Shown here in pieces: positions 1 to 4,539 of a stretch of 35,676 nucleotides of DNA. How positions within the stretch are numbered: position 1 is the first letter of the stretch; every line of letters begins with the position of its first letter. The DNA comes from Methanotrichaceae archaeon (lineage in GTDB: Archaea > Halobacteriota > Methanosarcinia > Methanotrichales > Methanotrichaceae), in assembly GCA_016927425.1 (NCBI GenBank), contig JAFGMR010000056.1, positions 1 through 35,676 on the forward strand, written 5' to 3'. Under the pieces are notes generated by a model. The model ran no database searches. It was not told the origin of the DNA and saw nothing but the letters and a program-made list of their open reading frames with translations. The translations under genes were made by a program, and so were the position numbers.

Positions 1-498
1 ACAACGGATTTAAATACTTTTCCGACAGCCTCAGTGTTGCGATTTGGCACTTCTCCTGAACGGCTAAAAGTGCTCAGGGGATTTATTTCGTTCCGCTTAG
101 AATTACATAAAGTTGGACTTACGCGAGGATTTCAGTGGGTAGATGGAAGTTTCTTGGAAAACATTGAATTACTAGAATCCCGCCCTCCCAAAGACATCGA
201 TGTAGTCACCTTCTTTCATCTACCCAATAACTCTACACAGCAAGATCTACTCGATACGTCTCCGCGGCTTTTCAATAGCAAAGATACCAAGGATGACCAC
301 CATGTAGATGCCCACTTTGTGCAATTAAATGGCAATATACCTGAAGATCTCGTATTTAAATCCACATATTGGCATAGCATCTGGTCTCACCGACGCGACT
401 TACTCTGGAAAGGCTATCTGCAAATTAATCTCTCTCAAACACAAGACGGCTCTGCAAGAGATGAACTCAATCGAATAACTTCTGGAGGCGTGTTATGA
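1..498 (+). CDS. DUF6932-like nucleotidyltransferase-fold protein (5' end cut by window edge)
   Basis: The reading frame is open to base 1, so the gene probably begins before the window; a GTG at 34 is a possible internal start. The visible part has a short helical region, then the polymerase-beta-type nucleotidyltransferase signature: a DGSF turn followed about 14 residues later by the acidic DID triad piece (KDIDVVTF). This layout (VDGSF...DID) resembles the DUF6932 family, whose biochemical activity is not established as far as I know. The C-terminal half has a DDHHVDAHF stretch, and the end of the protein is polar. The stop overlaps the start of the next gene by 4 bp (ATGA), so the two are very probably translated together. 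Base composition is visibly richer in A+T and in CGT/CGA arginine codons than the rest of the window, which suggests horizontal transfer. Family call moderate, function unknown. Confidence 0.7.
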   Translation, partial: TTDLNTFPTASVLRFGTSPERLKVLRGFISFRLELHKVGLTRGFQWVDGSFLENIELLESRPPKDIDVVTFFHLPNNSTQQDLLDTSPRLFNSKDTKDDHHVDAHFVQLNGNIPEDLVFKSTYWHSIWSHRRDLLWKGYLQINLSQTQDGSARDELNRITSGGVL

Positions 499-1400
499 TA
501 TTAAAAGAACATCATTATCTCTTATCAGAGCTGACCACTTTGGAGAGATTGATAAGTAAGTTGCCTGAATCTAGCGTGATCGAGAAGATGAGTCTAGAAG
601 CCCGCTTGAATGAGGTGAAGGAGATAATATCTGCTCAACAGACTCCTTTTTTTGAGCCAGCCCGTGTTCGATTGACATTCCGTGGAAAACCTGTCGTGAA
701 AAATTATGGGATATTCACTGAGTTTGCCGCTACCGTTTTAGATAAGTTTGTGAATATGGTTGCTGCTGTCGGCGCCAGCCAAAACGTTCCGTTGGGCACA
801 CGTGGCATGATCCCAAATCGTGAGGACTACCGTTTGATAATAACTGGAACGACTCCAGGATCATTTGGGTTCGAACTTGAAGAGGCACCTAGAGATGAAA
901 TATTAATTTCTCCTGTTAAGGCAGCGATCGAACAGACTATGTCGATTATGGAATCGGCTGTTGGATCAGATGATGACTTAGCAGATGCCATAGCTGAGGT
1001 TAATCCACGTGCTATTGAAGCAATGCGTGCATTTCTCGGTGCGATGGTAGAACATGAAGCATTATGTCTTCTTGAGATAGAGGAGAAAAAATTCCAATTT
1101 GATGATGTGAGTTCTGTCCGGATTACGAAGGAACGCCTTAGTCAAGATAATATCCACGAAGAAGACAAGGAACTTATAGGTATGTTCCAAGGTGTTTTGC
1201 CTACACGTCGCACCTTTGAATTTTCGATCAAAGAGGAAGATATAATCGTGGGAAAGGTTGGACTGGAGATTGAAGATGCAAGCAAAATTAATCACGTCAT
1301 CGAAAAGCCGATGAAGATCCAAGTCCATAAAAGACAAGTAGGAACGGGACAACCACGTTATGTCCTTCTTGGTTATAAAGAGATGGGAGAGCAAATATAA
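495..1400 (+). CDS. Conserved protein of unknown function, partner of the DUF6932-like NTase
   Basis: A 301-residue soluble protein with no signal peptide or membrane segment. Residues 1-50 are helical, with heptad-like leucines and a MSLEARL motif, and may form a coiled coil. A second region from about residue 55 carries RLTFRGKPV, then a mixed alpha/beta segment with TGTTPGSFGFELEE. An acidic, probably beta-rich C-terminal third ends in a lysine/glutamate-rich stretch. I recognise this as a protein type found next to DUF6932 genes but can assign no activity. Start ATG 495 overlaps the upstream stop by 4 bp. Like its partner it is AT-rich compared with downstream genes. A toxin-antitoxin or defence role is only inferred from the nucleotidyltransferase partner and the foreign composition. 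Confidence 0.75.
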   Translation: MILKEHHYLLSELTTLERLISKLPESSVIEKMSLEARLNEVKEIISAQQTPFFEPARVRLTFRGKPVVKNYGIFTEFAATVLDKFVNMVAAVGASQNVPLGTRGMIPNREDYRLIITGTTPGSFGFELEEAPRDEILISPVKAAIEQTMSIMESAVGSDDDLADAIAEVNPRAIEAMRAFLGAMVEHEALCLLEIEEKKFQFDDVSSVRITKERLSQDNIHEEDKELIGMFQGVLPTRRTFEFSIKEEDIIVGKVGLEIEDASKINHVIEKPMKIQVHKRQVGTGQPRYVLLGYKEMGEQI

Positions 1401-2530: not shown

Positions 2531-3490
2531 TCAATAGACGGATCGCAAGAGCGCCTCTGTAGCCACTTCTATCGACTCCCTTGAGGAGTGGCCGGGGCTC
2601 CAGCCAGCCCTCTCCATCTCCTCTATCGAGAGAAGCATCTCGAAAACATCTCCCCTCCAGCCACGTCCATCGATTCCGCCAGTGAAGTTATATCTCACGT
2701 CCGAGAGGCCCATACTCTCAACCACGATATCTGCGATCTCGCTGACATCGATCGCATCCCTAGATCCGATGTTGAATATGTTCACATCCCCCTCTGAGGC
2801 CACCACGCCCTGGACCATCGCTCTTGCGCAGTCCCTGACCTCCAGGTAGGACTTCCTCTGCTTGCCTGAGCCCAGTATCTCGAGCTCCTCAGGGTTGGCG
2901 CGAAGCTTGCGAATGAAGTCAACGAGGACACCATGCGTTCCCCTCTCCCCCACGATGTTTGCGAAGCGATAGATCCAGGACTGCATATCGAATGTGTGGC
3001 AGTATGCCGATATCAGAGCCTCACAGGAGAGCTTCGATGCGCCGTAGAGGGAGATCGGCTTGAGCGGCCCATAGCTCTCCGGAGTTGGGATCATCGTCGC
3101 CTCCCCGTAGATAGTGGATGTGGAGGTGAAGGCGATCCTCCCAACCCCTCGCCTCCTCATGGCCTCCAAGAGGTTGTATGTGGCAATTACATTTCGGGCC
3201 AGGTGTGTGCGAGTATCGCGAGCCCCGACCTGGACGTCGGGATTGGCTGCCAGGTGGAAGACCAAGTCGGTCCCTTCCAGCACATCGTAAGCTGCTAAGG
3301 AGTCGAGAAGGTCGCCTTCCACAAGATGGAAGCGAGGGTTGGAGAGGTGCCCTTCCAGGTTCTCCCTCCTTCCGGAGCTCATGTTGTCGAGCACAGTGAC
3401 ATCGTTTCTCCCGACCAAGAGATCCACCAAATGGCTGCCGATGAAGCCCGCGCCCCCTGTAACCAAAATGGACAAGTCTTCTAGCATCAT
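2531..3490 (-). CDS. NAD-dependent nucleotide-sugar epimerase/dehydratase (SDR family)
   Basis: An extended short-chain dehydrogenase/reductase of about 319 residues. The N-terminal Rossmann motif is VTGGAGFIGSHL, followed by an acidic strand end (VLDNMSSGR) that would bind the NAD ribose. The catalytic region shows TSTSTIYGE, with the YGASK motif (YxxxK) about 25 residues later. The C-terminal half carries the substrate-domain pattern ANIVGERGTHGV and RKSYLEVRDCA typical of UDP-glucose/GalNAc 4-epimerases and dTDP-glucose 4,6-dehydratases. Specificity cannot be read from sequence; a UDP-sugar 4-epimerase for surface glycans or protein glycosylation is most likely. The frame extends to a GTG at 3559, but the family begins just before the Rossmann motif, so ATG 3490 or 3487 is preferred. 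It is divergent from tupA. Confidence 0.88.
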   Translation of the reverse strand: MMLEDLSILVTGGAGFIGSHLVDLLVGRNDVTVLDNMSSGRRENLEGHLSNPRFHLVEGDLLDSLAAYDVLEGTDLVFHLAANPDVQVGARDTRTHLARNVIATYNLLEAMRRRGVGRIAFTSTSTIYGEATMIPTPESYGPLKPISLYGASKLSCEALISAYCHTFDMQSWIYRFANIVGERGTHGVLVDFIRKLRANPEELEILGSGKQRKSYLEVRDCARAMVQGVVASEGDVNIFNIGSRDAIDVSEIADIVVESMGLSDVRYNFTGGIDGRGWRGDVFEMLLSIEEMERAGWSPGHSSRESIEVATEALLRSVY

Positions 3491-3577
3491 CTGTCCACAT
3501 TTGTCGGCGACTTGATGATATATCTTGCCCATCCGCGAGGACTTAAGGGACGACCGCACTACTGTTAAGCGCTATAC

Positions 3578-3594
3578 AAAACCAAAATGGTTTT
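3578..3594. promoter_or_regulatory. Perfect inverted repeat in the epimerase/tupA divergent promoter
   Basis: AAAACCA and TGGTTTT form 7-bp arms around AAA. The right arm runs into TTTTAAGG (3591-3598), which sits about 30 bases before the tupA ATG at 3628 and looks like its TATA element. A repressor bound here could block TBP, so this is a candidate metal-responsive operator. No ModE-type consensus was recognised, and chance cannot be excluded at this length. Confidence 0.35.
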
Positions 3595-3627
3595 AAGGTG
3601 AGCGGCTACGCTTATTAATCGATCTCA

Positions 3628-4539
3628 ATGGACTGCAGAACATTTAGGATAGCCCTATCCCTTTTAGGCATTGCGCTCTTATGCTCGAGCGCTGCTGCTG
3701 ATGGCGATAGGTTAAGGCTGGTTACCACAACCAGCCTGTATGACACCGGCCTATTGGACGTTATCAAGGAGAGGTTCGAGGAGAAGTACAATGTGACGCT
3801 TGATATCGTCTCCAAGGGGACCGGAATCGCAATCGAGCTCGGCGAGAGGGGCGACGCCGATGTGATCATGGTCCACGACAAAGTAAGGGAGATAAAGTTC
3901 GTCGAGGACGGCCACGGCCTGGAGCGGCGTTGCGTTGCCTATAACTACTTCTATGTATTGGGGCCTGCCAGTGATCCCGCTGGCATAAGAGGCTTGAGCC
4001 CCTCCGAGGCGTTCCTCGCCTTCATGGAGAAGGGGCGCGATGATCCCGGAAGCGTATGTTTCGTCTCGCGAGGCGACAACTCCGGAACGCATGCGAGGGA
4101 GAAGCTGATATGGAATAGCGTTGGCTTCAACGCATCCGAGTTCAATCGGAGCGAGGAATGGTACACTGAGGCCGGATCTGGCATGGGCGCAACCCTTGTG
4201 ATGGCAAACGAGAAGTCGGCATACACCCTATGCGATATGTCCACCTTCATGGCCTATCAGGGGCAGATAGAACTAGAGGCCCTCGTAACGGAGGGAGATG
4301 AGCTGCTCAACGTCTACGTGGCGATACCTGTGAGTCCGATAACGCATCCGGGCGTCAACTGCGAGGACGCGATGAACTTCGTCGACTTCCTCGTCTCAGA
4401 AGAGGGACAGGGAATCATAGAGGATTATGCAGTAGATGGGAAGACGCTCTTCTTCAAGGCGGCCGGCAACTGCGATATAATTGGGTGCTCACCAGATATA
4501 TGCGCAGTTCCGACATCCGGCTGCCCGGCTGAGGCATAA
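3628..4539 (+). CDS. tupA: Tungstate ABC transporter substrate-binding protein TupA
   Basis: An exported periplasmic-binding-type protein of 303 residues that should bind tungstate outside the membrane and deliver it to the TupB permease. Residues 1-24 form a signal peptide. The TupA family signatures are all present: TTTSLYDTGLL (33-43), GTGIAIELG (64-72), SRGDNSGTH (147-155) and GSGMGATL (183-190). These oxyanion-binding loops distinguish TupA from ModA and from WtpA. Four cysteines near the C-terminus (CDIIGCSPDIC and CPAE) form an extra tail that could be disulfide-linked. The gene leads a tupABC operon, and the GTG of tupB lies 13 bases after its stop. Tungstate would serve W-dependent formylmethanofuran dehydrogenase or aldehyde oxidoreductases; that link is inference. 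Confidence 0.93.
   Translation: MDCRTFRIALSLLGIALLCSSAAADGDRLRLVTTTSLYDTGLLDVIKERFEEKYNVTLDIVSKGTGIAIELGERGDADVIMVHDKVREIKFVEDGHGLERRCVAYNYFYVLGPASDPAGIRGLSPSEAFLAFMEKGRDDPGSVCFVSRGDNSGTHAREKLIWNSVGFNASEFNRSEEWYTEAGSGMGATLVMANEKSAYTLCDMSTFMAYQGQIELEALVTEGDELLNVYVAIPVSPITHPGVNCEDAMNFVDFLVSEEGQGIIEDYAVDGKTLFFKAAGNCDIIGCSPDICAVPTSGCPAEA

Follow-up and report, generated by a model that had tools for sequence, protein, structure and literature searches.

A divergent archaeal member of the phage defence candidate PDC-M63 encodes a non-HEPN protein with a domain in common with DUF6575 proteins

Analysis of a 35,676-nt stretch of DNA from a Methanotrichaceae archaeon (hereafter, the window), representing the complete contig G000:C88 of a 2.3-Mb draft genome that is 99% complete, revealed that its first two genes belong to a divergent branch of PDC-M63, a phage defence candidate that is already catalogued and for which defence is unproven. 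The upstream gene (A) encodes a DUF6932 protein carrying an intact nucleotidyltransferase motif, and the downstream gene (B) encodes a protein that is not HEPN and that has a domain in common with DUF6575 proteins. As a listed candidate the pair is ordinary in kind; the link for its obscure half is new and testable. It ties that half to the family that appears to supply the toxin of a proven abortive-infection system, thus offering a concrete and cheap test, and it extends PDC-M63 to archaea, whose branch goes largely undetected by the standard PDC-M63B models.

We found both reading frames as the original prediction had described them. A (positions 1 to 498, + strand; 165 aa) and B (495 to 1,400, + strand; 301 aa) overlap by 4 bp in an ATGA (495 to 498, + strand) that joins the stop codon of A to the start codon of B, an arrangement suggestive of translational coupling. 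The AT-richness claimed for the pair was equally evident: the GC content of positions 1 to 1,400 is 42.5%, compared with 57.3% in the remaining window, where the lowest value for any other 1,400-base stretch is 51.4%. More specifically, GC3 is 0.38 in both genes relative to 0.52 to 0.78 in the other called genes of the window. The enrichment in arginine codons CGT and CGA that had also been proposed held for CGT (9 of 28, or 32%, versus 6% elsewhere) but was marginal for CGA (5 of 28, or 18%, versus 13%), with AGG (1 of 28, versus 33%) giving way to CGT. Rather than matching the remaining window, then, the pair differs from it in composition, and this cassette of a methane-producing archaeon was apparently acquired. 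Alignment with full-length relatives revealed that A lacks approximately 30 N-terminal residues found in those proteins and that its first ten or so residues are unlike theirs, indicating that the contig start truncates the 5' end of the gene. No other contig end of the genome overlapped this edge so as to continue the gene, and the window copy may be broken here.

Protein A matched Pfam PF22014 (DUF6932; E 1.2e-24, above the curated cut-off) and phrog_9194 (9e-29), and in the PADLOC scan it matched PDC-M63A alone (7.2e-10), with no match to AbiEii. Likewise, PDC-M63A was matched by all 22 A-family members that we scanned. Consistent with the polymerase-beta-type assignment made originally, the catalytic motif (145 to 201, + strand) comprises GSF (145 to 153) followed by DID (193 to 201), i.e., GSX14DXD, and the glycine, the serine, both aspartates and the preceding proline of GS...P.DxD are invariant in 28 aligned A proteins. 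A probable third catalytic aspartate lies in a VDAHF strand (304 to 318, + strand) whose conservation in alignment A2 is at least 90%. We predict that A is a metal-dependent nucleotidyltransferase. A sequence search of solved structures with A returned no match at all; the AlphaFold2 model of a full-length relative (locus L043; pLDDT 93.5) was nearest to the minimal nucleotidyltransferases 2rff and HI0073, both weak matches (E about 0.01). Alignments for structure prediction were built without plasmid-derived rows.

Protein B strongly matched phrog_18731 (4.7e-57) and more weakly, over part of its length, PDC-M63B (2.3e-4). The window therefore carries adjacent homologues of PDC-M63A and PDC-M63B, the same two gene families that stand side by side in PADLOC PDC-M63AB, and relatives with strong PDC-M63B matches align with window B; accordingly, we accept the pair as a member of PDC-M63, from a divergent branch. 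The suggestion that the system might be undescribed did not survive, as it corresponds to PDC-M63AB and a published study has already deleted a member in E. coli, with no defence phenotype (PMC12409345). What distinguishes the window pair is that the PDC-M63B models only just detect its B. A related Pseudomonas B (L013:11971-12876) is missed by these models entirely despite matching phrog_18731 at 7e-106, demonstrating that the PADLOC catalogue under-calls this branch. PDC systems were catalogued through 'guilt by embedding' (PMC10855318, PMC12988326), and in the sole reported test, in which E. coli NILS69 was deprived of PDC-M63AB by deletion, no defence was seen against 10 virulent dsDNA phages (PMC12409345).

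A Pfam scan of B matched no family, a sequence search of solved structures with B yielded nothing significant, and B displays no standout catalytic residues. Modelling of B by AlphaFold2 (pLDDT 90), a step proposed together with the original prediction, gave a helical hairpin (residues 2 to 47), an alpha/beta core, helices and a C-terminal beta barrel. The core (663 to 1,139, + strand; residues ~57 to 215) contains a GSFGF motif (858 to 872; residues 122 to 126) and, according to hhalign, is common to DUF6575 proteins. The barrel (1,146 to 1,385, + strand; residues ~218 to 297) is OB-like in the strand pattern of the model, and its best partial PDB matches in Foldseek were the OB folds of RPA14/32, archaeal RPA, the LysRS OB domain and CusF (probability about 1.0, E 0.02 to 0.1); this modelled fold most likely binds nucleic acid. 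Release-factor matches topping the PDB fold search were rejected (TM about 0.15, rmsd >20 A). We also ruled out a HEPN partner, given that no RX4-6H column is conserved among 31 B proteins, no HEPN match was obtained and the fold is a different, OB-like one. The earlier doubt about a HEPN fold was thus well founded, whereas the statement that B has no recognised domain holds for Pfam but not for the domain that it has in common with DUF6575 proteins.

The relation to DUF6575 proteins emerged from both structure and profile comparisons. In the Foldseek viral library, B matched a DUF6575 phage protein (E 4.9e-13). The DUF6575 proteins retrieved by our family search carry the DUF6575 domain at the N terminus, and their C-terminal part is matched by the PDC-M63B models (three proteins, best 1.1e-9). 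Comparing the B family with four such proteins by hhalign gave a probability of 98.9 (E 1.9e-17) over 249 columns, falling in the C-terminal half of the DUF6575 proteins, whereas controls (the A family, and reversed and shuffled alignments) reached at most 0.4%. The match to PD-T4-10-type DUF6575 proteins was confined to the GSF core (95.2, E 2.7e-8), and that to a DUF6575 profile led by E. coli sequences was weak (12%, E 0.0024) and in the same region. The two DUF6575 groups matched each other with a probability of 99.8 over 339 columns. At the level of sequence profiles, these comparisons demonstrate homology of the B core to DUF6575 proteins; the weakness of the direct match to E. coli DUF6575 proteins makes the connection with PD-T4-10B a partly transitive one. 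Neither B nor its aligned relatives matched the N-terminal DUF6575 domain (PF20215).

PD-T4-10 is described by Vassallo et al. (2022, PMC9519451) as an abortive-infection toxin-antitoxin system of two overlapping open reading frames, in which B alone is toxic, A neutralises B and is not deletable, and T4 resistance is abolished by loss of B; the same source names DUF6575 among defence domains. As the PADLOC PD-T4-10_B and PD-T4-10_A models match some DUF6575 proteins and their upstream partners, we infer that PD-T4-10B is a DUF6575 protein. The window pair resembles PD-T4-10 in its overlapping two-gene layout, with an upstream partner and a downstream protein whose alpha/beta GSF core may correspond to that of the PD-T4-10 toxin. 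However, its upstream gene encodes a nucleotidyltransferase and not PD-T4-10_A, its B protein is devoid of the DUF6575 domain, and the OB-like C terminus of B can be aligned to the alignment A5 group of DUF6575 proteins and not to the PD-T4-10 type; the different upstream gene and the missing domain rule out membership of PD-T4-10. As a separate observation, at five further loci (L129, L130, L132, L133 and L134), located in E. coli chromosomes and on plasmids of Rahnella, Pantoea and Oscillatoria, each DUF6575 gene is preceded by a partner of 135 to 145 aa; several lie in prophages or near integrases, and they appear as PD-T4-10-like pairs with an alternative antitoxin.

In MntA-HepT, the HEPN toxin receives AMPs from an enzyme with the motif GSX10DXD (PMC7641770). 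The window pair is similar in combining a small GSXnDXD nucleotidyltransferase with a second protein, but the spacing in A is X14 rather than the X10 of that motif definition (PMC7641770), and B differs in fold and lacks the RX4HXY motif of HEPN proteins. Membership of MntA-HepT was ruled out on motif spacing and the missing HEPN motif.

The pairing of A with B is real and near-constant. Iterated profile searches of fetched loci recovered both genes in 39 loci, in all of which A lies upstream of B on the same strand, the two overlapping by 4 bp in 15 loci and by 14 bp in 14. In the archaeal samples (order plus phylum), B adjoins a full-length DUF6932 match in 11 of 11 cases, so that the homologues nearly always occur together, as the original prediction had implied. 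The exceptions are L049, in which an apparently intact B has no A in the 524 bp up to the contig edge; L017, with A but no B; and L051 to L053, in which B is truncated or fragmentary. Concerning the last of these, L053 (G013:C1, from a related genome) retains only a C-terminal piece of B beside a run of Ns, possibly a decayed or masked copy. The pair spans archaea, Proteobacteria, Planctomycetes and Spirochaetes, having been found in the window's archaeal phylum, Phycisphaera, Spirochaeta, a deltaproteobacterium, Pseudomonas, Paraburkholderia, Bradyrhizobium and Methylobacterium. Its distribution is sporadic: counting fragments, it occurs in 3 of 50 genomes of the order and 9 of 295 of the phylum, and, again with fragments included, in 7 of 237, 4 of 246 and 2 of 247 genomes of three bacterial phylum samples. 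Searching E. coli DNA with the Pseudomonas pair recovered none, and tblastn of named phage genomes with window A, window B, the Pseudomonas B and a DUF6575 protein detected no close relatives.

The neighbourhoods of the homologues, as anticipated, are often prophage, plasmid or restriction contexts. In two archaeal loci (L041 and L042) the pair is inserted between HsdM and HsdS, in a deltaproteobacterial locus (L004) between HsdS and HsdR, and in L003 it precedes HsdM. On a Paraburkholderia plasmid it lies near methyltransferase and helicase genes, and on a Bradyrhizobium plasmid beside DUF6527, ThiF and multiubiquitin genes and near a VPA1262-family gene. The Bradyrhizobium locus (L014:11468-15760) has an arrangement of its own, in which opposite-strand genes for DUF6527, a ThiF-type adenylyltransferase and a multiubiquitin-domain protein, together a bacterial ubiquitin-like cassette, directly follow A-B, with the VPA1262-family gene on the other side. 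Fourteen viral contigs carry the pair, and 8 of these have a homologous repressor gene a short distance upstream in the same orientation; in the four repressors that we read, an HTH precedes a C-terminal region bearing the G-x-SM motif known from S24-type (CI-like) repressors. From this co-directional placement we infer that A-B is expressed in the lysogenic state, as is usual for cargo that acts against superinfecting phages. In the window, a rhodanese gene adjoins the pair. The closest relative (L043, from Methanotrichaceae; 77% identity in B) has different flanking genes, none of the relatives inspected (L112 to L118) has A-B beside the rhodanese gene, and L116 has a different gene on the rhodanese side where the window has A-B. 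In L112 (G002:C39:1-3686), from the same family, the rhodanese gene is accompanied by a TnpB-like gene (1 to 732) and a different nucleotidyltransferase-like gene (3,093 to 3,686), both named by eye; given these genes, the rhodanese side may be an accessory hotspot. The original reading of a two-component conflict-type module, comparable to MNT/HEPN pairs but with a non-HEPN partner, is supported: of the refuting conditions proposed with it, those on pairing, on genomic context and on composition did not hold.

We favour, at roughly even confidence for and against, the explanation that A-B forms an antiviral module that resembles a toxin-antitoxin system and moves horizontally, and in which B is an effector restrained by A, probably via nucleotidylation. 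A shared mRNA would yield A shortly ahead of B, and B would be the toxin side, its core being common to DUF6575 proteins, the putative family of PD-T4-10B. In the resting cell, A would restrain B, most likely by attaching an NMP, as MntA does to HepT, or else by binding; nucleotidylation is the leading hypothesis because of the MntA-HepT precedent. Infection would upset the A/B balance, upon which B would stop growth or viral replication. In favour of this explanation we counted the near-constant pairing and the fixed order, the same layout in PD-T4-10, the homology of B to DUF6575 proteins, the restriction, plasmid and viral contexts, the sporadic distribution, and the rhodanese gene that has no A-B neighbour in the relatives inspected. 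Against it we counted the negative NILS69 deletion test (PMC12409345), the transitive nature of the PD-T4-10B link, the absence of the N-terminal DUF6575 domain and of standout catalytic residues in B, the L049 and L017 exceptions, and the possibly broken window copy.

The intact and highly conserved motif of A, together with a B protein that has no obvious catalytic residues and an OB-like fold suited to RNA or DNA binding, would also accommodate reversed roles, with A a toxin that, like MenT/AbiEii, modifies a host molecule such as tRNA, and B an antitoxin or nucleic-acid-binding sensor that checks it. Nucleotidyltransferase toxins are known, but the core of B is probably common to the PD-T4-10 toxin family, in which the downstream gene is the toxin, and A has no AbiEii match in the PADLOC scan, leaving this arrangement unlikely though still a serious contender. 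The same OB-like fold and motif, and the embedding of the pair between restriction operon subunits, fit a direct two-protein immune enzyme as well, B binding viral nucleic acid through the OB fold and A adding nucleotides to that nucleic acid or to a bound protein, such that replication is blocked without cell killing and no toxin-antitoxin is involved; the core-domain homology points instead to a toxin family, and we know of no precedent for such an enzyme, so we hold it to be distinctly improbable. That the pair is selfish or housekeeping cargo, serving to maintain plasmids or prophages and having no part in antiviral defence, agrees with its occurrence on those elements and with the negative phage test (PMC12409345), but maintenance alone does not readily account for its repeated embedding within type I restriction operons across unrelated phyla, and we give this little credence. 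Least credible is a CBASS-like, second-messenger scheme in which B is activated by a nucleotide signal that A synthesises: A does carry a polymerase-beta nucleotidyltransferase motif, and CdnC is among its weak structural matches, but only at E 0.13, with the minimal nucleotidyltransferases 2rff and HI0073 ranking best. No CBASS model in PADLOC matched A or B, B contains no recognised effector domain, and membership of CBASS was ruled out.

Building on the favoured reading of B as an effector restrained by A, we tentatively raise the bolder, and rather doubtful, idea that a single superfamily of non-HEPN toxins, with interchangeable upstream antitoxins, has PDC-M63 and PD-T4-10 as two of its branches, the antitoxin of PDC-M63 being an enzyme that switches off an OB-fold effector by nucleotidylation. 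If true, MntA-type chemistry would be used a second time, on an unrelated toxin, in archaea as well as bacteria.

A minor observation concerns the record from which the Pseudomonas relative was taken (CP109682.1; L013). This 425-kb 'plasmid' contains the core chromosomal genes holC, leucyl aminopeptidase and lptF/lptG, and is therefore probably a mislabelled piece of chromosome.
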